NCBI GenBank assembly: GCA_023078555.1
Contig: CM041203.1
Location: 5,602,538-5,666,537, forward strand
Direction: 5' to 3'
DNA: 64,000 nt
Origin: Ulva prolifera
Taxonomy: Eukaryota > Chlorophyta > Ulvophyceae > Ulvales > Ulvaceae
Under the pieces are notes generated by a model. That model ran no database searches. It was given only the letters and a program-made list of their open reading frames with translations, and was not told where the DNA came from. Below, piece by piece: positions 2,661 to 47,688 of the stretch; within the stretch, counting starts at the first letter, position 1; each line of letters begins with the position of its first letter. The position numbers were made by a program, and so were the translations under genes.

Positions 2661-3297
2661 AGAAACACCACAACGTTGCGGTGATGGCACCCAGACACAG
2701 ATCTAGACACGGTGCACCGACGTCAGCTTCGGCCGTGGATGCGGTGCTTCCTTGCCCGCTGCTCGAGGCGAGAGGTCCGGTTAAGCTTGAAATCCATGAG
2801 GGAATGCATGAGTGGCTGCAGCGGCCGCACCAGGTACGGCAGCTGGAGCAGGGCTGTGGTGCGGGGCGGTGCAGGAGCGCTACTAAAGTATCAATTGCTT
2901 AATGCAGCCGCTCCGGAGAGACCCCTAGGCCTGGGCCGTGCATGAGGGGGGCGGTGGGAGCCGATACTGATCGAGCTTCTTCTGGGAGGGTTGCCAGTGG
3001 GCCAACCATACATCTGCCGCACACCTGAGTAGGTGTACATGTTCGTGTGCGTATTCTGTGGGCGTCTGCCGTGCTGCGCAAGGCACGCCGTGGTCGGATT
3101 CGACGTGGGTTGGCATATGCATATGCATCTGCTGGGCATGGCATATGCCATGCATGTCCTGCACGTGTTGGTAGCGTTGGCGTGCCTGTGCGTTAACGTT
3201 GCCCGGGCGGTGCTACCGTATTAGCAATAACAGCAATGTGCAAGGTCAGAATTGAGAGGCAGGTAGCACAGCAATGCTCGTGCGCATGTGAGCAGGT

Positions 3298-3340
3298 GTG
3301 TTACAAGGATAGATGCGGCATAGCGGGCAACACCACTAAA
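3298..3340 (-). repeat. Retroelement 3'-terminal motif (minus orientation)
   Basis: TGTTACAAGGATAGATGCGG is the reverse complement of the shared retroelement terminus (CTTTGTCCTTGTAACA class). It lies just outside a microsatellite and a reverse-transcriptase remnant, so the local DNA is a nest of partial insertions. Confidence 0.4.
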
Positions 3341-3448
3341 TGAAGCCAGCAGAGTAAGCACAAACCCAGACACCCACGCAACACACAGAACCCACCACGC
3401 GCCCACAAAAAATCGACGTCGCGCCCAGAACCTCAGACCGCTACACAC

Positions 3449-3529
3449 CCACACCCACACCCACACCCACACCCACAAACGCTACACACCCACACCCACA
3501 CCCACACCCACACCCACACCCACACCCTC
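3449..3529. repeat. CCCACA hexamer microsatellite
   Basis: Two arrays of the hexamer CCCACA (3449-3477 and 3488-3527) are split by a short ACAAACGCTACA spacer. The same unit forms a longer array at 5268-5354. The reverse-transcriptase remnant at 3530-3908 starts directly after this array. Confidence 0.9.
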
Positions 3530-3908
3530 GAATGTCCGCTCGGCGGCGACCTGTGACGGCGCCGCCGCGGCGCAAGCCGACCAGCGCAAGCGCGACAGAT
3601 ATGGCCGTGCGGGCTCTGGCGCATTCACCCTGGTGCCACTCTCTCACGAGACGTACGGGAGGATTGGCCCAGCCGCGTTCGCCTTCCTGAACCGGCTTGC
3701 CGACCTTGCTGCGGGTTCGGGCGCCGCCTCCCGGCGGCTGTTCTTGGAGAATGCGATGCGCGACCTGTCCACGACGCTGTGCCGCGCGGTGGCTCGGCAG
3801 GTGCATGCTGCTGCCCCGCTGATGGCGCGTCATGCGGGCAAGGCTGTTTTGACGGGGCTGTCGGTCCCGTCCGATGACCTCACGCCGCTCACGGGCCACC
3901 CGGCTTGA
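3530..3908 (+). pseudogene. Retroelement reverse-transcriptase C-terminal remnant, copy 1
   Basis: The open stretch ends at a TGA (3906-3908). It contains VPLSHETYGRIGPAAFAFL, LENAMRDLSTTLCRAV and GLSVPSDDLTPLTGHPA. The pattern 'plxxETYGRlG..A..fLn.L' followed by 'R..f...AmR.LS..LCR' is one I recall at the C-terminus of many algal retroelement reverse-transcriptase proteins, so this is the tail after the polymerase domain. The catalytic part is absent. The left border falls exactly at the CCCACA array. Copies 2 to 5 at complement(4882-5150), 5690-6152, complement(11747-11860) and 18690-19111 share this tail. It is a dead 5'-truncated copy. Confidence 0.75.
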
Positions 3909-4314
3909 GCGGCGCTGCGCACCCGCCCGGGCTGCGTGGTCGGCAGTTGCCGCTGCGTGTGCGCTCGCAGCCTTGTCCGCTTTATTGTGGTGACGGCTCG
4001 GGCGTGCCGCGTTTCGCTGGTGTCTTCCCCGTGCGCCTGTGTGTGGCCCGCCGTTGGGGCGCGGCCGGGTGGTTTGGGCGGGCTGGGCTGGCCTCTGGGG
4101 ATTGCGGGTGTGGGTTTGCGGGCGGGCGGGGTGGTGTGCGCGGGCTGGGGTTGGGGGGTTGTGCTGGGGGAGGCGGGGGCCTCCCCGGGCTGGGGGTTGT
4201 TGCGGTCTCGCTGTTTGTTTGCTGGGCGGCCTTGGCTGCTTGTGCTTCCGGGGCTCGTGCGCCTTGCTGTTGGGTGGGGTTCGGGTGGGGATGGGCGTGT
4301 GGGCATGGGCGTGT
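3909..4314 (+). mobile_element. GC-rich region, likely 3' UTR of copy 1
   Basis: About 400 bases with strong G over C bias follow the stop of the plus-strand remnant. They resemble, in opposite orientation, the C-rich 3' region of the minus-strand copies (the G-rich reverse of 4400-4800). Long overlapping frames here are produced by base bias and were not called. It meets the end of the minus-strand copy at about 4315, so two elements meet tail to tail. Confidence 0.5.
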
Positions 4315-4881
4315 GTGTGTTACAAAGGAAAAAGCCGGAGGGGCAGGTAGCACCGCCAGGACCAAAAGGGAGAGCACAAGAAACGCAATGCGCACGCAGC
4401 AGGAGAGCCACAGCCAACGCCAAGGCACAACAAGCACACACACACCCCCACGCTCCCACACACTACCACACGAACCACACACTGACACCCGACCCACGCA
4501 CCCACGCACCCGCACGCGGCCCAGACCCAACCCCCAACACACACACCCACACGCCAACACGTTACACGACCCCGCCGCCCGCGCGGCAGCAGCAGCCCCA
4601 TGCAGCGGCCTGGCCGGCGCCGGCCCCACACGGAAGCCGCCGGGGGCCCCCAGGACCCCCGCCCCAACGCCCCGATCAGGCCGGCCCCGGGCGCCGGAAC
4701 AACACACACGGAGGCGCCCCCATCCGCGGACCCACCCGGAACGGGGCACGCCCGAGGCGCGCCGTGTTCGGGGGCCGGGGCACACGGCCGCGGCAGCACA
4801 CGCCGCCTACCAGCGCGTCCGAGCCTCGGAAAGCGCCCGGCCCGCGAGAAAGCGACGAGGACGCCGCGGGCGGCTCGCCGC
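4315..4881 (-). mobile_element. Retroelement 3' UTR, copy 2
   Basis: In element orientation (minus) this is a 567-base G-rich untranslated region after the reverse-transcriptase stop at 4882, ending in the reverse of GTTACAAAGGAAAAAGCCGG. Nearly the same sequence recurs at 10708-11095 and 11168-11746. The shared blocks include GGCCGGCGCCGGCCCCACAC and CGCCCCGATCAGGCC. The ORFs across it are compositional. Confidence 0.7.
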
Positions 4882-5150
4882 TCAGGCCGGATGGCCAGTG
4901 AGCGGCGAGAGATCATCACATGGGACCGCAAGTCCCGTCAGTACCGCCTTGCCCGCGTGACGCGCCATCAGCGGGGCAGCGGCGTGAACCTGGCGTGCAA
5001 CGGCGCTGCAGAGCGTCGTGGAGATGTCGCGCATCGCATTCTCCAGGAAGCGCCGCCGAGAGACCGCGTCTGCCCCTGCAGCCACATCGGCGAGCCTGTT
5101 CAGGAATGCGAACGCCGCCGGGCCCACGCGCAAAGCAAGCGAGGCAGGTA
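4882..5150 (-). pseudogene. Retroelement reverse-transcriptase C-terminal remnant, copy 2
   Basis: The minus-strand frame reads GPAAFAFLNRLADVAAGADA, then FLENAMRDISTTLC and GLAVPCDDLSPLTGHPA, ending in TGA. It is closely similar to copy 1 and lacks everything upstream of the GPAA segment. About 110 bases further upstream in element orientation lies the CCCACA array at 5268. It is a 5'-truncated insertion with its 3' UTR at 4315-4881. Confidence 0.75.
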
Positions 5151-5267
5151 GCACCGCAAGCAAGAAGCAGGGGAAACGTACACCACGCAGCAAGCCACAC
5201 GAAGCGCACACCAAAACACCCACGCAACGGCAGCACCCGCGCCGGACACAGCGACACGGCAACACAA

Positions 5268-5354
5268 CCACACCCACACCCACACCCACACCCACACCCA
5301 CACCCACACCCACACCCACACCCACACCCACACCCACACCCACACCCACACCCA
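5268..5354. repeat. CCCACA hexamer microsatellite (about 14 units)
   Basis: An uninterrupted CCCACA array ends in one variant unit (CCCATA). Frames read through it as Pro-Thr or Gly-Cys-Gly-Val strings, which should not be taken for protein. It is the second array of the same unit next to a truncated reverse-transcriptase remnant. Confidence 0.9.
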
Positions 5355-5399
5355 TACCCAAACAGACACACACCGCCCCTCACACACCCACATAGCACC

Positions 5400-6152
5400 C
5401 CACACCACAACGCCTGTCCCCGCGTGACGAAGGCGCCGCCCGAGGCCACCTGTCCGAGCCGCGCATCTGAGGCACCGCGGCGGCTGCCGGCAGCCACCAT
5501 GGAATCCGGACGACGCTGAAGCCGCTGCGGCCGACGTGAACATCGAGGTGTGCACGCCAATGTACTTGGTATGTGAGGGTGTATCCCAAAGCCCCCAGGC
5601 AAGTGCACGCGACACGTGCCACAACGTACACTTTCGGCCCGGCCACTGCCCCGATCGAGTAGCCACCAAGTTGAAAATGAGTGAAAGGTTGGAGACAGCT
5701 GAGTGTGCGTTCTTCCCGGGCGCGCCGGTGATCGGCGACGTGTGCGTCACCCACCCGCTGGCTTCCTCGAACGTCAGCACCGCGGCGCTCCACGACGATG
5801 CCTCGGCAGAGGCCGCCGGCCGGGGCAAACGCGAAAAGTATGGCCGGGTCGGCGCGGGCACGTTCACACTGGTCCCGCTGTTGCATGACGTACGGACGGG
5901 TCGGCCCGGCTGCCTCCGCATTCCTCAACAGGCTTGCTGATGCGGCGGCACGGTCATGCACAGCCTCAAATCGGCTCTTCCACGAAAACCATGATTCGCA
6001 ATATTTGCATGACACTCTACCGTGCAGCTGCAGTCGCCCGACAGCTCCGCGCCACGCCTCCGCTTGTGACACGCCACGCCTGTAAGGCGGCTCTGGCAGG
6101 TCTGCCGATTCTGTCTGACGACCCCTCGCCCCTCGCACGCCGTCCAGCCTGA
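5400..6152 (+). pseudogene. Retroelement reverse-transcriptase remnant, copy 3 (frameshifted)
   Basis: Pieces of the same C-terminal reverse-transcriptase region appear in three plus-strand frames. VCVTHPLASSNVSTAALHDD and KREKYGRVGAGTFTLVPL read at about 5735-5880. YGRVGPAASAFLNRLADAA reads at about 5888-5950. RATPPLVTRHACKAALAGL and SDDPSPLARRPA end at a TGA at 6150-6152. At least two frame changes separate them, so it is dead. The stretch 5478-5530 is partly similar to 7769-7825, which suggests that the element extends left. This copy is more diverged than copies 1 and 2 and keeps a little more of the upstream protein. Confidence 0.65.
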
Positions 6153-6942
6153 GATGTGAGCGCTTGAACACCTCGTGATATCGATCGATCCCCCCCGGCA
6201 CAGCACGGTTGCACAGCGGCCTTTTCCTTTAAGAGCAGAGGGCAAATTTGCCCTCTGCTGCCCAGCGCTGGCTCGACCGGGCACACCTCACCCGGGGTGG
6301 TGGTGGTGGATGCCTGTTTGTCTTAAGCCAGGGAGATTGTGGCGCACTGCCGTCAAGTCACTTGTTCGGTCAAATTGGTACGGCTTTTGGCTGGAAAGGG
6401 CTGCGTGGAGGTCAATGAGGTAGCACTCTCCAGGCTGTACATGTCCGCATGCTGACGCATGTCTCCCTGCGCACGGGCGGCTCTGAGCATTCACTTGTTG
6501 CATCTAGAGTTTTGATACCGTAGTCCCGGGGACGGGCTGCACACTTCTTTGCGACCTATACAGTGGGTCTAGAAGTCTAGACCATGCCGTCTTCGTGCTG
6601 CAGCAGCGCATGAAGCATAGCGCTGGTTAGAACATAGGCATGAATACACGGTAGGCACATTGCAGGACCACTCATGAGTTGATCAACGTACAGCCATTGG
6701 CCTGTTTCAGTTGCTGCAGGCGCCCGCGGGTACCAAAACTCCCTGTGTCGACATGCAGCAGCATATGCATATGTGCCCTTGCAGAGCTTCTTTTGGATCA
6801 CCCAGCCAACAACTGCAGTTTGCTACGCATGATTCGGGCCGCTTCCCCGGCAACCCAGGACTTGCGTTGCTCCGACACTACGTGATAGCCTTTACAGCAG
6901 CTTTGCTATAGATTCACTCACACGCACCGGCGCAGCGCTCTG
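6153..6942. other. No gene recognised
   Basis: This 790-base stretch follows the stop of a retroelement remnant. It has short overlapping frames on both strands with no consistent splice structure. Nothing convincing is seen apart from a short palindromic run (GCATATGCATATG near 6760). Confidence 0.5.
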
Positions 6943-7446
6943 CTAGGACTCACGCCCAGACAACGAGGCATCTGCCCCTACCGGCGCGACTTCGGCAATG
7001 CAGGCGTTGATGTGCCCGGCAATGTACAGCTTGTCAAGAGTGGTCAAGGAGTGCGAGAGAAGCGGTGAGGGCGTGCTCTGCACTCCCGGGACAACGACAA
7101 CGGCTTCGTGCTCCTCCACGGAGGCAGTGTGCCCTGCATTGCTAGCAGTGATGCCAGTATATATAGTGTTCTCCAGCAGGAAGGCCTTCGTGACATCCCC
7201 ATTCTCGTCCACCCAGCGGGGGCGATCTGTAGCCTGGTTCGCTAGCAGAGCAGTGTCATCAGCTTCGAATTGTTCAGCATGTGATGGCTTCTGTTGAGAC
7301 TGAGCACTCGAGGTCCTCTTGCGAGAGTGCAGCTGGACAGACGTGGCCTGTCCGCCGTGCGCGCCCTCTTCCACTCTCACCTGCATCGTCGCTGCGCATG
7401 TATCTATATCATATGAGCAATGCACTGACTTGAAATCGATGGACAA
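6943..7446 (-). CDS. Hypothetical protein ORF (167 codons)
   Basis: An uninterrupted minus-strand frame of 167 residues has ordinary amino-acid make-up, unlike the biased frames nearby. It contains RPRWVDENGDVTKAFLLEN and LTTLDKLYIAGHINACIAEV. There is no family match, membrane segment or signal peptide. It could be one exon of a larger gene or a retroelement accessory protein. No clear acceptor or donor was fixed, and the ATG (7444-7446) may not be the true start. Antisense frames are treated as shadows. Confidence 0.35.
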   Translation of the reverse strand: MSIDFKSVHCSYDIDTCAATMQVRVEEGAHGGQATSVQLHSRKRTSSAQSQQKPSHAEQFEADDTALLANQATDRPRWVDENGDVTKAFLLENTIYTGITASNAGHTASVEEHEAVVVVPGVQSTPSPLLSHSLTTLDKLYIAGHINACIAEVAPVGADASLSGRES

Positions 7447-8342
7447 GGTTACTCAGCAGGCATGCATGACACCGTCACGGTGACCATAGGAACATATACT
7501 ATTGTATGCACAGTGCAATGTATGCACTCTGGTCGGCTCATCTCAAAGTGAGCGGTGCAGGTGTGCCACTTACTGCTGAGCACTGCAAAAAGAGAGCAAA
7601 ACAAATAGAAAGGTGTTGCTGATCATGAGCGCTTTTGCTGACTCTGTATGATGCATCGTCTGTGAAGCAGGACCTTGCTGGTGCTCGGATGCGCACCTCA
7701 GCCCCAAGCAGGTCATGTGTTTCGCCATGTGCCACACGCACCCCTGGCACCCAGCGCGCTGCCCACGACCATGCCGCCGGCAGCCACGGCGGCACACACA
7801 CAACGCTAAATCCAGCAACGCCCACCCTGATGTCCGCCATTGCCGGACGCCATGGCCACAGCATCAACGCCCGGCCGGCCACTACGCCCAACACAAACGC
7901 AACGGCGAAGTGAAGAGCGGCTGCCGCCCCCGCCCCCAGAGGCCTCGTCTCGTAAACTCGGAGTTGTCAATGTCCAATAGGATACGGCTAAGTAAGTTCA
8001 GATTTACTTTACAACAGGTGCATGAGCGATGTCACATTGCATGCATGTGCCAGTGGTTCTGGTGCTTCAGAGTTGTCCAAGTCAGGCCAAGGAGATGGCC
8101 AAGCACATCCGCTTGATGGGTGATGGGTGAGGTGAGTGTGTTGGGGCAAGTGATGATGGAGATGGGGTGCGCTGTTTTACAGCACGGTGCCTGTGTGCTA
8201 TCTACCTCTCCAGAATTTTCCTTGTAACACTGCGTACACGCCGCCACCCCCTACCGGCAGGGCCGCCTGCTTGACTTCCACGTCGCCAACACCTACTATC
8301 GCGCGCCCCGATCCGGCATCAGCCTAGCCAGGCAGCCACACC
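7447..8342. other. Mostly non-coding; retroelement-like fragment at 7635-7912
   Basis: The plus-strand frame at 7635-7913 shares AAGSHGGTHTTL with the left part of retroelement copy 3 (AAGSHHGIRTTL at about 5490). It is probably another internal fragment of the same element. The rest shows no coding sign. A CTTGTAACAC motif at 8220-8229 resembles the dispersed 3'-end motif. Confidence 0.35.
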
Positions 8343-8442
8343 AATGTTGGGTCGCCCGGCAGCAGTTCAGGGCTGCGGTCCAGAAAATAGACCTGAATAT
8401 GTGGATTTGTTCTATGTGATCGGGCCCGACAACCCAACACTG
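8343..8442. mobile_element. Short terminal-inverted-repeat element, copy B
   Basis: This 100-base unit starts AATGTTGGGTCGCCCGGC and ends GATCGGGCCCGACAACCCAA followed by CACTG. Its internal CAGGGCTGC segment is shared with copy D at 45562. It is non-coding and lies outside any recognised gene. Confidence 0.6.
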
Positions 8443-9339
8443 ACCCACACACCCTCATTCCTGTGGCGCTTGCTACACTTGCGCATGACGGCCAGAGCCG
8501 CCCACGCTGTGCTGACCCACGCACAGACCCCACCGGCAAGCCTGGGTATGCCGCCCATGCATGCAGGTGCGGGCCCGCCGCTCGACCGCCCCTGGCGGTT
8601 CGTGCTGGCCACCGCATGAACTCCACAAGTGCCTGTGCCAAGGGCGCCACTGGTCCGCACACCCTGAGTCGTGGCATCGTGGTGCCCATTGCGCAGGCAA
8701 TTTGTTCCTGTCGGTCGCGGTCAGATACCGGCGGGGGGCTGATCATCCTCGAGGCCTGCGACGGCCCACACGCGCAGCCCAAGGGTACTGGCCAAAAGCG
8801 CCCACAATGTTGTGGCAGTTTTCTTGAATACTTTTAGAGTTTCTGGTGCTGCACATGTGGCCGCCTGCACGCGACCCGAGCAGCCTGCACGATACTTGAG
8901 CTTGTGGCCATCGCAGTCGGTGATCGTGACATTGCAGTGACTTGCTCACTATGAATCCGGATTAAACGGACTTCGACATTTCTCTTCACGAGATGTGCAG
9001 CAGTCCCGGCCTGGGCACCAGCGAGGCTGGATGTTAGTGGGTTACGGGGCAGCATCTGTGGAAGGCATGGCGAGGCGAGGCCCTCAACTCGGAGTGGTGT
9101 TGCAACGTGCACATGGGTGGCGCAGGTAGCCACATGCTTGCTGCACCTGGTGCTACATCATGCTTGTACGAGGCAAACAGACATCGCCTTCACATATTCT
9201 GAATATGATAGGCAACAACATGCTGGTGAATGCACGTGAAGACATCCAAATGTATACTGGTAGATGTGATCATGACCCGAGCACCCGTGAGTTAGACTGC
9301 GCCACAGATTGATTGTCATGCGAGCTCTCGGAGCGTACC
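8443..9339. other. No gene recognised
   Basis: There are overlapping frames on both strands with no consistent exon signals. This may be the 3' flank of the minus-strand gene piece that ends at 9340. Confidence 0.4.
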
Positions 9340-9830
9340 TTACTGCACGAGCTCGATGTTGGCGGGCTTCAGTGCCTTCAGCCCGTGTGGTTCTGGAAGG
9401 TGCACCCCAACACGGTCTCTGGTGTAGTGGCTCCCCCCAGCCACTACACCGGTGACGCCGTTCAGCTCTGCTGCGTTTTGCAGCCCTTTGACCCGAACCT
9501 CCTTTCCCGCGGAAAACACAGTCTGAAACATTATGGGACAAGCATGAAAGGCGTGGGTATTCCATACCCCATATCTGGGACGGTAAGACGGACACCACCG
9601 AGTCCAGCTTTCTCTCGTCACGCTCCTTGGCCCGTCATCGAGCATCGCCATCTCGTCTAGCACCTCAAAGTCGTCTAGCACCTCAAAATCGACTGGTGTG
9701 AAGGGGACTCCATCCGTTCTGAACATCAGGACGGGAGGAGCAGGCCCTAGCATCCCTCCGTACTGCCACGAAGAGGGCGCAAGGCCCGACCGTGGATCAG
9801 ACATAATGCGAACAATTCGGTACCTATGGT
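9340..9830 (-). CDS. 3' end of an algal gene with a 'PELNG'-type C-terminal domain (partial or decayed)
   Basis: Two minus-strand exons fit together. The upstream piece (about 9830-9622) reads VRIMSDPRSGLAPSSWQ, VLMFRTDGVPFTPVDFEVL and LDEMAMLDDGPRS. A GTGACG donor at 9621 joins in phase to a TTTCAG acceptor at about 9525. The last exon reads SAGKEVRVKGLQNAAELNG, RVGVHLPEPHG and LKALKPANIELVQ, ending in TAA at 9340-9342. The 'DDPRSGLAP..WQ....VFR.DG.pft..D' block and the 'v.GL...pELNG..G.v......RvGV.l.....ALKPaNl' block are ones I recall from uncharacterised green-algal proteins, some with MYND fingers or ankyrin repeats. An 18-base tandem duplication (9660-9695) encodes the DDFEVLDE repeat. 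No 5' exons were found, so it may be a relic. Confidence 0.45.
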
Positions 9831-10460
9831 GTCTGAATCCTGTGGGCGTCTTCCTGCGTACGCACACAGGGATGCCGGCAGCTACCGCGATCCGGCACGG
9901 CTCATCCTTTGCTGCATTCCTCTTTCCCTTGCAGGTAAATGCCCTTCGCAACAAAAACTTGATCGCCCACTACCTCCACGCCATCTACTATAGATGCCTG
10001 GTCTGCCATTGAGTGCCTGGGCAGCAGCTGTTCTATTCACGATATGATGCAGTGCGCCGATCGACGGGCAGCGACGATAGAGCGACACATCTCTTCGAGG
10101 TGATTCTTGTACAGCAAGAGCACATTCAACCAATGCAGAAGGTTGAAGGTGGTATGGACAGGCCATCGGACACATGCAAGTGCAGATGATCGCAGTGCTC
10201 GTCGACTGATCTCGGAGACAAATATCTCGCGGTGCGAGATAAGCCATACTTGTGTCTACACGTCTCCCGCAATGCGCTCACGAACGCACTGAATAGCCAC
10301 CTTGAGAATAGTGGCTTCAACGGGCATTGACTGCACTAGTACAAGATTTGCTTCAGCAATTCATACCTCTGCGAGTTATGCACTTGTGGGTAACTTGGGC
10401 ATCTCCATGGTGCACGATTCCTTTCTACTTGCGTGCTCCAGGCACACAGGCATGGCTCCT
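9831..10460. other. No gene recognised (possible 5' part of the 9340 gene)
   Basis: If the gene piece at 9340-9830 is alive, its 5' exons should lie here on the minus strand. Short frames occur, but none joined in phase with clear signals. Confidence 0.3.
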
Positions 10461-10707
10461 AGGTGCGGTGCGGCGTGGGCCGGCGGGGCTGCGCGGCGGT
10501 GTGCCGGGCTGGCGTGGTATGCTGTGGCTTGGTGGGGTGGGGGTGGGTCTTGGGGCCAGGGAGGCCCCCGGCAATCGGGCGGCCATGATGGGCGGCCTCA
10601 GGCAGCAGTGTGTTGGGTTTGGCCCTGTCGTACGGCGGCGGGCGTTGTGGTGCTGGTGGTTGTGATGTTGTGTGTCGGCCGTGGGGTTTGTGCGTGCGCG
10701 TGTGTGT
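10461..10707 (+). repeat. G/T-rich repeat block, first of two
   Basis: Segment 10617-10705 (CTGTCGTACGGCGGCGGGCG and onwards) recurs almost unchanged at 12028-12112. In both places a retroelement-like end lies beside it. It is non-coding, and biased frames across it were rejected. Confidence 0.6.
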
Positions 10708-11095
10708 TACAAAGGAAAAAGCCGGAGGGGCAGGTAGCACCGCCAGGACCAAAAGGGAGAGCATAAGAAACGCAATGCGCACGCAGCAGGAGAGCCACAG
10801 CCAACGCCAAGGCACAACGAGCACACACACACCCCCACGCTCCCACACACTACCACACGAACCACTCACTGACACCCGACCCACGCACCCACGCACCCGC
10901 ACGCGGCCCAGACCCGACCCCCAACACACACACCCACACGCCAACACGCTACACGACCCCGCCGCCCGCGCGGCAGCAGCAGCCCCATGCAGCGGCCTGG
11001 CCGGCGCCGGCCCCACACGGAAGCCGCCGGGGGCCCCCAGGACCCCCGCCCCAACGCCCCGATCAGGCCAGCCCCGGGCGCCGGAACAACACACA
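10708..11095 (-). mobile_element. Retroelement 3' UTR, truncated copy 4a
   Basis: A near-identical partial copy of 4315-4700 begins at the GTTACAAAGGAAAAAGCCGG end. It stops after ACACACG where the next copy's flank begins, so it lacks any reverse-transcriptase sequence. It lies head to tail with the longer copy at 11168. Confidence 0.7.
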
Positions 11096-11167
11096 CGTTG
11101 TGCGTGCGCGTGTGTGGGTTTGGGTTTGTGGGTGTGTGGGTCTGTGCGTGTGTGTGCTGGTGTGTGT

Positions 11168-11746
11168 GTTACAAAGGAAAAAGCCGGAGGGGCCGGTAGC
11201 ACCGCCAGGACCAAAAGGGAGAGCACGAACAACGCAAAGCGCACGCAGCAGGAGAGCAACAGCCAACGCCAAGGCAGAACAAGCACCCACACACCCCCAC
11301 GCTCCCCCACACTACCACACGAACCACACACCGAAACCCGACCCACGCACCCACGCACCCGCACGCGGCCCAGACACACACCCAAACCCAAACACACACC
11401 CAAGCACCCACAAACCCCCACGCCAACACGCCACACGACCCCGCCGCCCGCGCGGCTGCGGCAGCCCATGCAGCGGCCCGGCCGGCGCCGGCCCCACACG
11501 GAAGCCGCCGGGGGTCCCCCGGACCCCCGCCCCAATGCCCCGATCAGGCCAGCCCCGGGTGCCGGGACAACACACATAGGGGCGCCCCCATCCGCGAAAC
11601 CCGGAACGGAGCACGGCCGAGGCGCGCCGTGTGCGGGGGCCGGGGCACGCGGGCGAGGCAGCACACGCCGCCTACCAGCGCGTCCGAGCCCCGGGCGGCG
11701 CCCGGCCCGCGAGAGAGCGACGAGGACGCCGCGGGCGGCTCGCCGC
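11168..11746 (-). mobile_element. Retroelement 3' UTR, copy 4b
   Basis: This is the third copy of the C-rich 3' region, with small indels relative to 4315-4881. It leads directly into the reverse-transcriptase tail at 11747-11860. The 445- and 487-codon frames across this block come from base composition and repeats and are not genes. Confidence 0.7.
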
Positions 11747-11860
11747 TCAGGCCGGATGGCCGGTGAGCGGCGAGAGATCATCACATGGGACCGCAAGTCC
11801 CGTCAGTACCGCCTTGCCCGCGTGACGCGCCATCAGCGGGGCAGCGGCGTGAACCTGGCG
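11747..11860 (-). pseudogene. Retroelement reverse-transcriptase extreme C-terminus, copy 4b
   Basis: Only the last 38 codons remain (ARQVHAAAPLMARHAGKAV to LTGHPA, stop at 11747-11749). They are very like complement(4882-5000). At 11861 the similarity stops abruptly and a G/T-rich unrelated sequence begins, which is the truncation junction. Confidence 0.7.
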
Positions 11861-12290
11861 GTGTGCTGGTGTGTGGGTGTGTGCTTGGCGGTCTGCGGAT
11901 CTGTGTCGCTTGCTACGCCGGTGATGGGTGAGATGTTCGTGGTTGTCTTGGTGTTTGCTTCGTCTCCTTGCTCCTTTCGCGGTGCTGCCCGACTTACTGC
12001 CTTTGTCCTTGTAACACAGGCATGGCATGGCCCTGTCGTACGGCGGCGGGCGTTGTGGTGTTGGTGGTTGTGATGTTGTGTGTCGGCCGTGGGGTCTGTG
12101 CGTGCGTGTGTGGGTGTGTGCTTGGCGGTCTGCGGATCTGTGTCTTTTGCTGCGCCGGTGATGGGTTTTTTTTTTTTGGGCGTGGTGGGTGTCGCGTGCG
12201 TGGGTGTCTGTGTGTTTGCTTCGTCTGTTTGCTTCGTTTGCGGTGCTGCCCGCCTTGCTGCCTTTGTCATTGTAACACAGGCATGGCATG
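11861..12290 (+). repeat. Two tandem G/T-rich units each ending in a retroelement-type tail
   Basis: GGTGTGTGCTTGGCGGTCTG and the following bases occur at about 11873 and again at about 12113. Each copy leads to CTTTGTCCTTGTAACACAGG (12001-12020) or CTTTGTCATTGTAACACAGG (12262-12281), followed by CATGGCATG. The unit is about 260 bases. It also contains the second copy of the 10617 block and a T run at about 12166. No coding is seen. Confidence 0.65.
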
Positions 12291-29600: not shown

Positions 29601-32600
29601 TGGCCTTGGCGCTATGGGGTGAGCGCCAAGGGAGTATTTTCAGTGCGGTTCTACGATGTCTCTGTCTCTCCCCGCGCCCATTCACGCAGCATGTGGAGCT
29701 GTCAATCGAGGTTGGAACAGTGGAGACCTGGGAGAAAAGGTTATTTCCTGGGCCTACTCTCGCATCAATCCTAGAGAAATTAGTGGGGTTAGAACCAGGG
29801 GTTTGAGGACAGCGCACCTGCACCCGCTTCTCCTCGAGGGTGTTGCGGTCGACCCCGAGGCGGTCCGCATGCATGTCGAGCACGTTGAACGCGTTGGCCT
29901 CCAGCGTCGACAGCGCCTCGAGGAGTGCGGCGATGAGCGGCGCCAGCTGCGCCGCGATCTCGTGCGGCGCCGCCACGGCCACGATCGACGCGAGGGTGCC
30001 GACCGCGGCGTCGCGCACGCTCGCGCTGCGGCACTGCAGGCCCTTGTCGATGAGCAGGGGCAGCGACAGCGCGAGCGCGGCCGACGCGTCCGCGGCCGCC
30101 GTCTGCTGCGTGTCTGCTAGCCTGCACCACATTGCATGCTCAGCATGCAAGCTCAGGCGCCAGCATTCCCGGCAAACGCGTTTACGCAAGTCAGATCCGA
30201 GACATTGCGTGGCGCAAATTAGCCCAGACTCTCTAGAATTGACTTTGGACCTGGAGCTTGAAGATAACGGCGTAAGGCACTGAGAACCCCCCCACCCCAA
30301 CTGATGGGCGCTAGCGAGCCTCTACTTCAGGGCATCTGTGCCATCTTACAAAACGCAGGCCAAAACGCCAGACATGATGTAGCGCCATCAACAGCAGTGC
30401 GGCACATTGTTAAGTCAGAAGCGGCTCTACGAGCGACACCCGCCAAGCTCACTCGATGCCACGCTGCCTGCTGAGCACGGTCGCTTGCATGTGACACGGC
30501 AGCGCCGGACACAGCCGCTTGCGCATGGCACATCGGTGTCGGGCACGGCCACTATCGTGGGCACCGCGTGCCGCACCTGCAGGTGAGGTTGCTGAGGGAG
30601 CGCAGCAGGCGCTCGCCGTTGACGCGCACGCTGTCCTTCAGGTCGTCCGCGACCCGCAGCGCGGCGTCCCACAGAGCGCCAAAGTGCGGTTGCAGGGCCG
30701 GCCAGCGGCGGCCGGGCAGGAGGTCGGCGGCGGCCAGGCAGGCCGCCTGACGCGCCCGCCACGACCGCGCACCCAGCGACGCCAGCAGCTCCTTCATGAC
30801 GGCGGCAAAGTGCTGAGTCAGCGCGGGCGCGCGCTGCGGGACGATGGTGGTGAGGAGGTGAGTCATCGCGTCTGAGACGCGCGTGTTGGGGTCGTATCTG
30901 CACAGTCGACGCCCCGGTGAAATTCCAAGAGGACGATACAGCCGCATCAGCCACGGACCGGGATTGTTTGTCTGTGTGGAAGGACCACGATGCATCATGG
31001 TCCTTCCACCAAGGCAAACACGCCCCGTCCGTGACTGATCATGATGGCGGGTCAATGGTGCACAGGAGACCGGTCTCTCAGGCTCCAGATGTGTTCGCTG
31101 TCGACGCTGGAGGCCAACGCGTTCGACGTGCTCGACATGCATGCGGACCGCCTCGGGGTCGACCGCAACACCCTCGAGGAGAAGCGGGCGCAGGTGCGCT
31201 GTCCCCCCCCTGGTTCTTACCCCACTAATTTCTCTAGGACTAATGCGAGAGTAGGCCCAGAAAATCCGTACATCCTGTGCACCGGTCTCCTGTGCACCGC
31301 CTGAGACCGGAAGTGATCCTTGCAGCTGTGGGGAGGCGGACAGCGGTGCTGGTGTACTGCGGGCCCCCGCAGGCAGACTTCACCATCGGATTTCAACGAC
31401 AGAGGCCTTCAATCCAATGTAAGGCACCCAAGTGCGCCACCCTCACTCGCTCCGTAGCGTTCAGAAAATGCGGCCAAACTCAGCTGGGAAAGGCGTGGAT
31501 GTGCACAGGAGAGTGCTCTCTGCCAACGCCCGCAGCATGCTCACATCGATAGTCGAATGCGGTGGCCGGCGATGAGGCAGCGTTCCCTGTGCCGCAACAG
31601 CAGTCCAGCACACGGCAGACGTGTAGCTGAGCGGACGAGGGGCGTACGAGGCGCGGTACAGCAGCGGCAGCAGCGCGGGGACGTGGGGCTGCAGCGCGGC
31701 GCGCGACGCGTCGGTGGACTCGGCGTGGAGGCCGAGGGCCGCGCCGCGGCGCGCCGCGCTCGGGGTCGCCTCGGCGGCGACGTCGATGAGCGCGTACAGC
31801 AGGCGCGGCTGCCCGAGGGAGGTGGCGAGGGTGCAGAGCTCCTTGTACGTGGCGAGGGAGCCCTGGCCGGTGGAGGGCGCCGCCGGCTTCGCGGCGCCGT
31901 CCTGTAGCGCAGCGCCTGTGGTCACGGAGCGTGTACACACGCAGGCATGGCGGCTGACCATGAGGGGCACAATGGCTTCTCCTTGCCTCAGGTTGTTGAT
32001 AGAGCGGTGCATGCATGAGACGTTTTGGAACGGCAGGAGCGCCGCAGCTGTCGTTGTGGAGCGTACGCCCGCTGACAGTGAGAGGCACAGCGGCTCGCCT
32101 CGGTTGTGGACAGCAACGGGTTGCTTCGGATGCGAATGTGTCTCACAGCTAACTAGGTGGATGACAGGCAGGCGGCTGTGGGGTGGGGTCACTGTCATTG
32201 CATACTGGCGAGTGTGGCGAGTGAAGAGAAAGGTCAGGCGTGTACACGCACACGTTGAAACCCGGAGCAGCGATTGCACGTAGGCGCCGTCAGGCAGCAT
32301 GACATTGAGGCCCACAGTACAACACAGGCACCGGGAACGGGGCGCTCGCCACACTCAAGACACGCGCGTCCAGTTTTTTCAGACCCGCCTCCGGCCGCCC
32401 TCACTGCACAATCTCGATATGCATGCAACTCTGGTCCCAACCGGACGAGTACACATGCATGACCACAGCCGCACGAACGATGAGAGCTGCACAGGGTTCC
32501 CAGAGAGTGAAAAGGAACACAGCACCAGAATGTCTCTCGAAGCGGCTCCCGAGGACACAGCCACATACGATTTGCTTTACTTTACACTGCGGCACCACAA

Positions 32601-35600
32601 AAGCGGCGAGGGAGGGGCAGGGGGAAATGCGGCACCTTGGAGGCAGCGTCGGTGCGGGCGGCCTGCAGTGCAGGCCCCGCCATCTGCAGCTTCTCCACAA
32701 GCGCATTGACCAGAAGCTCCTTCGTCTCGTCGTTGCCGGCGCTGTACGCGGCTGACAGCCCATGGCTCGCCATGTCCTGCACCCAGGCGGCAGTGTTGGG
32801 TCGTCGGGCCCGATCATATGGAACAATTCCGAATGTTCAGGTCTAATTTGTGGGTGGCAGCCATGGGAATGCTGCAAAGCGACCCAGTCCTGGTACAAAT
32901 GTACAGCACACTGCTCCGCGTGAACTTCGCAGGAGGCGATGCAGGTCAGAGGGCGGTGCATGCGCTGGCAACCTCCCTCGGGACACGGACCCCCAGACGC
33001 TGAGCTCATGTGACTTGTCGAAATAGAGTGGTGATTGCGGACGTGCTCGATGTTGAATCTCTGGTGTGGACATACGATTATGGCCCAGCATTGAGGTAAC
33101 AACAGCCTGAACGGCCACCTTACCCCCCGCAGTGCGATCACACTCTTGGCATATCACTACTGGAACCTAGACAAGTGGCGTGGGCCTCAAGATTAGCATG
33201 TAGGTCATCACGTGCTGTTATGATTTTGATGTGTTTGAGAAGAATGGTTATCATCATCGGCCCACACCACGCGCGCAGGCATCAGTCACACTGATGACAA
33301 AGAACAGAACAGGCCGACAGGCCAATGTCCATGATACGAGGAAGGTGCTGGGTGCAAGTGACGCCCCAACACAACATGTCACAGTGACGTGGCCTGTGGG
33401 CCAGGCCTTTTGTAGCACCCGTCACGCACGCACCGTCTGCGTACCACAGACAGCGGACTGTTGCGTAACCGTGAACATGATTACGTTGTGCACTGCAGGA
33501 ACTGATGAGATCGTTTGGACCTGTGTGACAGTGTGGAACTAGAGAGGGTACACGATTGACAGCAGGTGCGACCATCTGGAGCAAGCACCTGCACGAGGTC
33601 GCTGGTGTCTCCTGCCAGCAGCGCTACCAGCGCCGCCTGTAGCCGCGGCAGCCCGCCGGCCACCTTCCCGTCCCCACCGCACAGCGCCAGCAGCAGCACC
33701 AGCCACACAGCGGCGGCCGCACGCTCGTCCGCCGTCCCTGACGATGCCTTCTTTATCGCGCCGTCAAGAATGGTCTCCTTCAGCTCCTCCGACCCAGCTG
33801 TGACCACAGGCGCTGAGTCAGCGTCGGCAGGACCTCCCGGGAGGCCCCCGGCGAGCTCACGCTTGCGGCGCAGCTCCGCGAGGGTGGGGCTCGGAGAGAA
33901 GAGCAGCGCCTTGGCTACAGGGGCGCTGGCGCCGCTGAGCGCGAGGCACAGGGACTCCCCGACGGCAAAGTGGAACTCCTCGGCCGCGGAGGGGGGGGCC
34001 TGCGCGAGGAGCACGGTGGCGTAGGCGGCGCGGAGGGGCGGCGCGGAGGCGCCGGCGGCGAGGTGGCCGAGGGTGCGCACGACGGGCACGCGGGCCTTGG
34101 AGTCGCTGCCGAGGCGGGGGTCCTTCAGGAGGAGCGCGAGCTTCGTGAGGACATCTGCCATTGTGGCGGGGGGTGTGCCTGCGCACATCGGCGACCGCAT
34201 ACGAGGGCTGCACTGGTGGCGCTCAAGCAGAAGAGCGACAGATTGGCAGTCCCGATCCAGGGGCCAAGGGCAGTGTACAACGTGCTAAGCATGCGCGGTG
34301 ACTGGGGCAGAAGGAGAAGCGGCACATGTGAAGCGATCGGGACCTCCCACGACAACCCAGGTGTGGAAGCACTTCTAACGGCATATGCAGCAGCTGCTGA
34401 GGTCCTGTGGGGGTACCTGCCTCTCCCACGTTATTGTAACATAGAAACTGTCGTGACACAGGGTTTTGATGACGAATGAGCCAAACACATGCAGTCTATG
34501 CACGTTTAATTCTGGACGTGCAGATCATATGCGAAGCAATCCTGTGCACATGCAGGCAGGGATGACTTTGCATAAACCATTCAGAATCCGTCAGGTGGCG
34601 CACACTGCCGGCAGGCCAAGCATTCGATTGCACGACCCAGCGACACGCGGAAATGGGAAACACAAACACAAGCAGAATTAGGATGTGCCGCACCACCAGC
34701 CGCCGACTTTGCCGGCGCGGAAAGATCCGGAGCCTTCACGTCACCCGCAGGCAGCACATCCACGCCCGCCAGCGCCATGAACCCCAGCGCCCGCCCTGCG
34801 GCCAGCGCCACCTGCACGTCACCATTGCACAGCTCCGCCGCGACGGCCTTGGCCGCCGCAGGCGCCTCACATGCGGCGGCCTCGCCGCCGGCCCTCGCAC
34901 GCATGTGCGCCCCCGCCGCCACGAGCCCCGCAGCGAGCAGGCTCCCATGCGTCTCTGCAAACTTCACAGCGACCGTGGACTTCCCCGTGTCCGCAGACTT
35001 GCTCGAAGCAGCAGTGCCGGCCGTGGCGGAGTCCGCTGTGCCGCCGGGATCCCCCGGGAGGCGCTGGACGAGGTCAGAGAGGAGCTGCTGGGTGGTGGAG
35101 GGGGGGAGTGCGGCGGTGATGGACCCGAGGAGGCGCGCCGCGGCGAGGCGGACGTCGGCGTTGACGTGCGACAGGAAGGCGCGGAGCCAGGGGAGGCGGG
35201 TGGAGACGTGCGCGGCGGGTGCGGCAGGGTCGACGTGCGCGACCGCAAGGAGCTGAGTCAGCGCGATTAGCTGCAGCTCTGTCGGCGCCTCCCTGCATGC
35301 GAGGCCACCCTGGCCACCCTGGCACGGCCATGGCAATTCAAGACTATGCCTTACAGCAGTGATCCATCGTTTGCCCTCTGCGCCATGCCCCCCACACATA
35401 GAGCACGCCTTGAACATGACCACATGTTGAATTACATCAAGGAAACATGCCACTGCGGATGTGGGTGCCATCTGATGCCACTGTGTGCAGGCACACCGCC
35501 TGCCGGGTGACCCGCAGGTGCATCCTAAAGCACGGATACCAATGCAGCTTCACCGTTCACACGCACTGTATCAGCCAAACGGCCCCGTCATATGCCGATG

Positions 35601-45200: not shown

Positions 45201-47688
45201 TGCATTTTGAGTCAGCTGGCAGCAGTTGGTAGGGAAATGCTGTAGCCGGGCGTGGCCATGTCCATGTCTGTCCTGGAACACATCGTTCCCAGCCTGGTGG
45301 AGCGTAGCCCTGTGCTTGATTTGTGTTTTGCTGTGTAAGAGCTGTGATGCCAGAACAAAGGGTGTATGCGTTGGTGTTGGCTGCACGCGTTCCTACATGG
45401 TTCTGTTTGCGGACGACTGCAGGGGCCATGCTTGTTTCGTTTGGCTGCCAGCGGAGCCCCTGTGTGTGTGTGTGTGTCTGTGTCTGTGTGATGTATGTAG
45501 TGTATTGCCATGCTGTGCATGCGCTCTGCACCTGTGGCCCTCTTCAGCATCTACCTTGCAGCAGTATGGGGTCGCCATGCAGCATTTTCAGGGCTGCCCA
45601 GCCAGAAATTAATCCTGATTATTCGGCATTGTTGTACGTGATCGGGCCCGACGACCCAACACTGCCCCGCAGGGACAACGTGCTCCGGCCGCTGACAAAC
45701 GTGCGGGAGGAGTTTTTCGAGACGTTCACGGCGCGCGCGTCCTACACCGAAAGCTCCCGCGACGACTTCGAGGCCGGCAAGCGCTCCCTGCAGCGCATGC
45801 TCGCGGACTTCGAGGCCGACGTCGTGAAGGCCGGCTTCCGCGCCGACGGCGAGACGAGCCCGATGGGCGTGCTGCTGCGGCACTACGAGCAGGAGCTGAA
45901 GCACCCTGTGCGCAACGCTGTGACCGGCACGCTGCCGCGGTCGCTCCTGATTCAGGTGCGCCGCAGCTGCGGGCATTCGCTGTGCCTGAGCAGGCGTCGA
46001 TGGTAAGATCATAACAGGGCCCAGCTGTTCCGGGCAGGCCATGGCTACAGCCCGGTCACATCACTGGATTTCCGCAGTCGCGGTGGTGGTCCTCGCATGC
46101 CTGTGCCAGGAGGAGGGTCGGATACCTGGTCGATGTACATTGTGTGGCGACTGGTGCTCCAGGCGGGTGTGCCTGCCATCGTGATGCATGGCGGACCAGT
46201 CGGGGCGCACGGGAAACGCAGTGGGGTAGACACGCTGAGCAATCGTGTCAGACTCTGTGCATGCAGCGGCCGGGGTGAAGGGCACTGCTGTGCCACGCTC
46301 CTGAGCGCCGCAGCTGCCGAAGGCCATGGGCCGCGATCGCAGGCCCAACTCACGCCTCCTCCACGCTGAAAAAACGAAACGATGTCCTCGACCTCTAGTG
46401 GCTGCTCCATGCATGCCATGCATGCACTCACACGCGCTACAGGGCAACCACCACGACCACATTCGGCACGCCCACAACGCGCCGACACGCCCACGGCCCC
46501 CGTGATGCGTGCAGGTGCACAAGATGAAGACGGACACGGAGGCGGCGATGATCGAGCTGGACAAGATCATGAAGGCGAACGAGCTCACGCTCGCGGTGAC
46601 TGCGGCGCTGCCGGCCATGCTTGTGGCCGCGTCGCTCGGCTACGCCGGCTTCCGCCTGCTGTCGCCGCCGCCGCCGAACGTGCGCACGACGGCCGGCCCG
46701 ATCCGTGTCGCCATGGCGGAGCTCGAGCGGGTGCGCCCCTCATGCTGGGAGCGCAGCACGCCGGTGTACGCACATGCACTTCATCAGAATCGCTCCGCTG
46801 GTCGATCTGGGCCGCTACGAGTGAACTCAGAGGTATCGGCTCTATAGATGTAGGGGGGCGCGGGCGCACCTCAAGTTGGTGAAAGGACTCCTTCTTCTCT
46901 ACAACGCTGCTGGGCGTTGGTATGCACACGCGCCCAACATGCCACGCAAGAAAATCGCATGTCGCCTTCAGCAGCCCTCAGGGGGCCACTGCGATGGGGA
47001 CCCTGTGGTGTCGTCTGCTGTCCGGATCATGCAGCAAGCGCTGCCCTGCACGCTCCGCACCCAAGACGACCCGCACGCCTGAACGTGTGTTGGGAGAGCT
47101 GTCCCAGCCATATGCAGCAGCTAGGGGTCGGGGAAGGTGCACGGCCGCTGCGCAACACAATGCCATGGCAATCACCGGGGCATCACGACCGATCACGTAG
47201 ACCGAGTTTCATGTTCTTGCCTGAAATTATGGGGTGACAGCCGCAACAAATTAGGCCAGCGTCCCGACTGCGACGGGCCCCTCACCACTCTTCCCGACGC
47301 GCTGCCCATGCAGGCGATCGACGCAGCTGTTAGCCTCGAGGAGGACCCTGCCCTTGCCGACCTCGACACCGACGCCCGCCCCGCCCCCGCGCCGCCCGGC
47401 GCCGCCGCCGCCGCGGACCTCACCCCGGAGCAGTCCGCCGCGCTCCACCGCCTGCAGCACCACCGCGGCGTCATCCTGCTGAACGTCGCGAAGCTGCGCG
47501 CGACGGCGGCGCGGGTGTTCGCGCTCTCGACGCGCAGCCTCACCGGCGCGGGGGACACCGAGACGTGGGCGGCGGAGTGGAAGAACCTCGAGGCGGACCT
47601 GCTGGACATCGCGGCCGCGGAGAGCGCGGCGCGGCAGGCGCGCGTCGCCGCGCGCATGCACCGCACCTACCTCGTCTTCCGCGTGTAG
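42211..47688 (+). CDS. NCA2: NCA2/DGS1 family mitochondrial outer-membrane protein
   Basis: Yeast Nca2 is needed for normal expression of mitochondrial ATP6/8. Its plant relative DGS1 is a mitochondrial outer-membrane protein whose mutation alters galactolipid and mitochondrial lipid balance. Exons are 42211-42420, 42668-42806, 43350-43450, 44040-44323, 44665-45099, 45673-45955, 46515-46730 and 47314-47688, phases consistent, about 680 aa. Key stretches are AVEVHMHFWQKRMKAGNN (plant 'NIQKNLEFWQSRAEG'), FMAFGQGPIRFARAM, RDNVLRPLTNVREEFFETF, LLRHYEQELKHPVRNAV, SLLIQVHKMKTDTEAAMIEL and DKIMKANELTLAVTAALPAM. Two hydrophobic segments, HWLAYSLNTAVALAAVRFLY and LTLAVTAALPAMLVAASLGY, are the expected membrane helices. 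The ATG in MFVTDLVGAVLSPLH is the first usable one. Exon 1 is the least conserved part and its start is tentative. It is divergent from ECM29. Confidence 0.92.
43967..44002. repeat. GT microsatellite in NCA2 intron
   Basis: A (GT)n run with two GC steps lies 40-70 bases before the acceptor of NCA2 exon 4. It is on the sense strand, where a pyrimidine tract would normally sit. Confidence 0.85.
45562..45664. mobile_element. Short terminal-inverted-repeat element, copy D (NCA2 intron)
   Basis: The copy starts CAGTATGGGGTCGCCATGCA and ends TGATCGGGCCCGACGACCCA then ACACTG. It fills the 3' part of the intron before NCA2 exon 6. Its end is 8 bases upstream of the AG at 45671-45672 (sequence CCCCGCAG). 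It has the same termini as copies A to C and no coding capacity. Confidence 0.65.

Follow-up and report, generated by a model that had tools for sequence, protein, structure and literature searches.

An inverted copy of the end of one ECM29 exon lies inside another intron of the same gene, bordered by perfect 18-nt inverted repeats, and this arrangement raises the question of whether the insert is a mobile element, a regulatory hairpin or a scar left by DNA repair. The insert in intron 13 is probably a single-locus inverted templated insertion that arose by break repair or replication template switching and that is now slowly diverging; a one-off repair or template-switch scar, rather than a mobile element, is the most likely reading.

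ECM29 is encoded on the minus strand of the 64-kb stretch of DNA that was analyzed (hereafter, the window), which comes from a GC-rich genome of 88.9 Mb in 44 contigs. Translation through the proposed junctions gives a single open frame, and the product matches the Pfam family PF24492 (HEAT_ECM29) with 139.7 bits and an E value of 1.2e-40. Introns 13 to 16 have GT...AG borders and are 750, 455, 447 and 197 nt long, respectively, where exons and introns carry the numbers of an earlier note on this DNA, which are not counted from the start codon. A PDB search with exon 15 returned one insignificant match (E 0.48), and an Rfam scan of the window found nothing at gathering scores. An inverted repeat, GCATGCTGAGCATGC, is located at 30134-30148, immediately upstream of the intron-14 acceptor on the minus strand. 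The features of the locus are collected in Table 1.

Table 1. Features of the ECM29 insert and its surroundings (positions in the window)
Feature	Position	Strand	Basis or remark
ECM29 exon 15, parent exon	29818..30121	-	Translation across junctions, PF24492 match
Parent segment, made up of the final 98 nt of exon 15 (29818-29915) and the first 75 nt of intron 15 (29743-29817)	29743..29915	-	Alignment, gene model
ECM29 exon 14, between insert and parent	30577..30897	-	Translation across junctions, PF24492 match
ECM29 intron 13, host of the insert	30898..31647	-	750 nt; 508 nt without 31057-31298
Single-locus 94-nt palindrome with 47-nt arms, 83% complementary, no spacer	30946..31039	.	Self-comparison, genome search
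Left 18-nt arm, GGTGCACAGGAGACCGGT	31057..31074	+	Inverted-repeat comparison, genome pattern search
Inverted copy, reverse complement of 29743-29915	31096..31265	+	Alignment and genome search
Additional incomplete arm core in tandem, GGTGCACAGGA, which overlaps the right arm at its inner end	31273..31283	-	Sequence comparison
Right arm, exact reverse complement of the left arm	31281..31298	-	Inverted-repeat comparison, genome pattern search
Third copy of the arm core, GTGCACAGGAGA, same intron, outside the insert	31501..31512	+	Core count, gapped alignment with left-arm region

The inverted copy is real. The earlier note had placed it at 31093-31263 against 29749-29926 with about 90% identity, which is slightly off: when read from 31265 to 31096, the copy matches the parent at 94.2% identity over 173 columns, with a genome-wide E value of 1.8e-70. 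It sits two introns upstream of the parent segment, at a separation of 1.2 kb. On the plus strand, the copy reads the end of exon 15, the donor GTGCGC and the start of intron 15; the exon and intron parts are contiguous and the splice donor is intact, so the source must have been DNA or unspliced RNA, not mRNA. As in a templated insertion, the inserted segment copies, in inverted orientation, a template that lies nearby and is still in place. The event is also confined to a single locus and is not dispersed: with a DNA search that skips very common words, 31057-31298 has two matches in the 88.9-Mb genome, namely itself and its parent. The whole intron 13 region likewise has no further relative in the genome by the same kind of search, and the possibility of an introner-type intron was rejected on this ground.

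It is conceivable that a reverse-transcribed fragment of unspliced pre-mRNA was captured at a break. The copied sequence is transcribed and crosses the unspliced donor, as such a retro-insertion would have it. However, neither end of the copy has a poly(A) run, the arms that border it derive from the local intron, and a source that is 1.2 kb away is more simply explained by direct copying of DNA, which leaves retro-insertion improbable.

Inverted foldback reads occur in long-read libraries, and an artefact of assembly or sequencing could in principle produce a similar picture. However, copy and parent differ by two substitutions in 98 exon sites, five in 72 aligned intron sites, and one 3-nt gap that also lies in the intron part, and this divergence argues against an assembly artefact. 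The locus also sits within a 6.1-Mb contig, and an artefact is extremely unlikely. The earlier note had named two findings that would tell against its own reading, and of these the first, that no other copies carry the same ends, is what was found, whereas the seven site differences and the gap argue against the second, an assembly error.

Homologous proteins give some indication of where these differences arose. The nearest relative found, P0004, shares 93% identity with the exon-15 query across 79% of its length. At position 29886 the parent encodes N, whereas the copy would read D; because P0004 shares the N of the parent, the change likely arose in the copy, which suggests that at least one of the differences dates from after the duplication and belongs to the copy. 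The other homologue, P0005, has G at this position and gives no help on polarity. At 29822, the site of the other exon difference, the parent encodes V, P0004 has L and the copy would read A, and this difference is uninformative. When P0004 is read into its own intron 15, likeness ends after the first two residues, so the duplication would be younger than the split from P0004, to the extent that one 100-residue fragment can indicate.

The inverted repeats that border 31057-31298 are exact over 18 nt, as the earlier note had reported. In plus-strand order, intron 13 contains the palindrome, 17 nt, the left arm, 21 nt, the inverted copy, 15 nt, the right arm, 202 nt and the third copy of the arm core. 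Host sequence between perfect inverted ends is what a foldback or Pack-type DNA transposon would show, if it had captured the exon end between 18-nt terminal inverted repeats and had then inserted into intron 13. Moreover, the genome does hold a repeat with long inverted ends, the L038 pair of about 250 nt. The earlier note had proposed either such an element or a template switch, and had suggested a genome search for the 18-base ends around other captured sequence. When the final 17 nt of the arm are used as a pattern, matches without mismatch are found at two places in 88.9 Mb, which are the two arms described here. When up to two mismatches are allowed, this 17-nt pattern has 17 genome matches in total (2 exact and 15 with two mismatches), compared with 20 for a reversed control; family ends that have diverged further would escape a search of this sensitivity. 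The captured segment was found in the genome as parent and copy and at no further place, and no 2- to 10-nt direct repeat indicative of a target-site duplication was found at the arm ends, at symmetrical offsets of -4 to +4. Finally, the arm core is also present outside the supposed element, at 31501-31512. On these sequence grounds, the transposon reading appears largely refuted and retains a very small probability; the template-switch half of the proposal is better supported and stands.

The arm core also indicates where the arms may have come from. Within the 264 kb searched (200 kb of contig 8 and the 64-kb window, all one contig), the 12-nt core has exactly three copies, and all are inside intron 13. 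Its first 10 nt have four copies in intron 13 and two elsewhere in the 264 kb. A complex 10-mer is present four or more times in 7 of 669 stretches (750 nt, step 375), all of them in the loci L036, L038 and L042; the intron 13 case was missed by this test, since its four copies are spread over 453 nt and straddle a step. The left-arm region and the region of 31501 form a gapped alignment of about 45 nt that was equaled in 1 of 1000 shuffles, and for the left arm against the right the alignment spans 27 columns and was likewise equaled once in 1000. The likeness between the right arm and the region of 31501 is weaker (6 of 1000), and all of these counts are rough, as the shuffles were drawn with a simple rejection sampler. 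Because the third core copy lies outside the insert and no other was present in the 264 kb, the arms resemble duplicates of sequence from the intron itself, and the most fitting view is of a local unit that was copied in both orientations. Two further candidates were rejected: the flanks of the parent have no homology to the arms (206 and 496 of 1000 shuffles scored at or above the observed value), and extension of the arms past 18 nt is not significant (244 of 1000).

The palindrome that lies 17 nt from the left arm is a second inverted structure in the same intron. Its arms mismatch at 17% of sites, which is above the divergence of copy and parent, so it may represent a separate, older event. 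To survey such structures, a self-comparison was made of the window and of 20 further 10-kb stretches of its contig, and 16 rows were kept after leaving out those with less than 78% identity, less than 40 nt (50 for palindromes) or low trinucleotide entropy. In a further step of the survey, rows whose arms were shorter than 16 nt or low in entropy were excluded. Outside intron 13, three rows were searched genome-wide, and two of the three are dispersed repeats. One of these, at L038:1190-1437 and 4149-4396, is an inverted pair of about 250 nt with at least 41 genome matches, many of them in opposed pairs 2.4-4.6 kb apart, and resembles an element whose terminal inverted repeats are long. The other, at L042:3720-4077 and 4812-5169, is a very abundant dispersed repeat (at least 57 matches, 1330 first-look candidates) that has an inverted copy of 98% identity close by. 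The third, L040:8162-8249, is an 88-nt palindrome at 93% whose sole genome match is itself, and it is not clearly coding. Two of the four palindrome rows were searched genome-wide (30946-31039 and L040:8162-8249), and both are single-locus. Several further rows fall in repetitive stretches of the window (3297-12279) and in L033. Judging from this sample, local inverted repeats are not rare in the source genome.

The survey also returned some additional repeats. Palindromes at L040:1324-1414 and L042:4739-4867 have a common arm sequence and probably belong to one miniature inverted-repeat family. A repeat of about 96 nt has three copies in the window at 80-83% identity (8348-8442, 32789-32886 and 45569-45666). 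A CACACC-rich stretch at 3300-12290 contains a 98% direct duplication (4309-4710 and 10696-11097) and an 82% inverted pair (3666-3914 and 4876-5124).

Returning to the insert, break repair or template switching could have produced it in three steps. Foldback or template-switch copying inside the intron might first have generated small hairpins, represented by the palindrome and the inverted GTGCACAGGAGA pair. Repair of a break or stall inside the second hairpin, between its two arms, would then have copied in about 170 nt from exon 15 and its donor in inverted orientation, which gave the product now present. Because this product sits in an intron, the copy would have been tolerated, and copy and parent would have accumulated the observed differences, at least one of them likely in the copy. 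We infer the event, its order and the microhomology at its junctions from the present arrangement; any bases shared at a junction would fall within the ends of the copy. Without the captured segment, the arms are predicted to pair as a hairpin of 18 bp, and the junction falls in its 36-nt loop. Pairing beyond these 18 bp is at the level of chance: in 2000 shuffles of the loop, the observed energy was reached 397 times, and a small terminal loop that crosses the junction appeared 611 times. The arm hairpin and the adjoining single-locus palindrome suggest a hairpin-prone spot, where inverted filler from exon 15 was used to repair a break or a stalled fork.

Among break-repair and template-switch explanations, MMBIR has reportedly been published as a model. 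Exons of A-family polymerases were found at two loci in the genome. One of these loci, compared with PDB, matches polymerase I best (3.9e-18), followed by polymerase theta (1.2e-16) and polymerase nu (3e-15), so the genome possibly encodes polymerase theta, although the match does not distinguish it from polymerase I or nu. One Ku-domain exon was also found. Polymerase theta makes stem-loop extensions in vitro, according to the available part of one report (PMC11292364), and in yeast, foldback inversions proceed via single-stranded hairpins, as the accessible text of another states (PMC7467729).

The insert might also act on the transcript. The earlier note had anticipated a long hairpin between exon 15 and intron 13 in the pre-mRNA, and the minimum-energy fold of a 1,721-nt stretch of the transcript agrees, in that 167 pairs are predicted between insert and parent in a duplex over the exon-15 donor. 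In this predicted fold, every base from 29809 to 29822 around the donor pairs with the insert. A long double-stranded stem with its target is what a small-RNA hairpin would be expected to provide, and Piwi-domain exons are present at two loci in the genome, which makes small-RNA processing conceivable. The insert could therefore be a young cis-acting hairpin that folds onto exon 15 and either hides the donor or feeds Dicer and Argonaute, as is modelled for the birth of small-RNA genes from inverted duplications. However, in the fold predicted without the insert, 12 of the 14 bases around the donor are still paired, so the insert mainly changes the pairing partner. In addition, the exon part of the copy shows no significantly better conservation than its intron part (2/98 versus 5/72, P=0.14), and the fold ignores co-transcriptional splicing. 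A cis-acting role of this kind is thus quite unlikely. There is also only a slim chance that the repair scar has turned into a self-targeting switch, in which the intron-13 copy would fold onto exon 15 across exon 14 so that the donor is hidden or the RNA is diced; if so, exon skipping, circular RNA of exons 14 and 15, or dicing would control the gene for a proteasome adaptor. Most likely, the present effect of the insert on ECM29 would be small or none. A literature search found no paper on an intronic inverted exon copy with a hairpin and splicing, which is weak evidence on the published record.

The insert resembles several known systems in part. As the available text on Pack-TYPE transposons describes them (PMC8903248), these also carry a host gene fragment between inverted ends; in contrast, no family and no target-site duplication were found here, and the arm core is that of the local intron. 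The inverted-duplication model for the origin of plant microRNAs, in the portion at hand (PMC3237417), likewise involves an inverted gene-fragment copy that can form double-stranded RNA with its source, whereas the present copy lies in cis, within an intron of the gene that it came from.

A repair or template-switch scar finds its closest counterparts in yeast. In the available part of one study (PMC11724301), breaks acquired local foldback insertions of 10 to more than 150 bp where an imperfect inverted repeat of 10 bp folds into a hairpin, as well as complex insertions with inverted pieces of one locus, with a median of 150 bp in one mutant. The likeness consists in inverted copies at a break and in a hairpin-forming inverted repeat at the site. 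However, most local foldback copies in that text measure about 5-34 bp and derive from sequence next to the break, whereas here about 170 nt came from 1.2 kb away; and, unlike the yeast insertions, the intron-13 case is seen solely as a product of evolution. Hairpin-creating mutations by replication template switching, in the sections available (PMC8794818, PMC7954356), similarly yield a reverse-complement repeat from a nearby source in one step. In apes these are short and near their source, with a median of 12 and a maximum of 128 nt by the same partial account (PMC7954356), whereas the source here is two introns away. One search tool for such insertions, as described in the accessible text, seeks templates within 100 bp only (PMC8421209). 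Compared with these systems, the case is ordinary in kind but a neat single example. It illustrates cleanly that repair or template switching may put an antisense copy of an exon-donor junction into a different intron of its own gene, and that a single mutation can thereby create a long self-complementary pre-mRNA.
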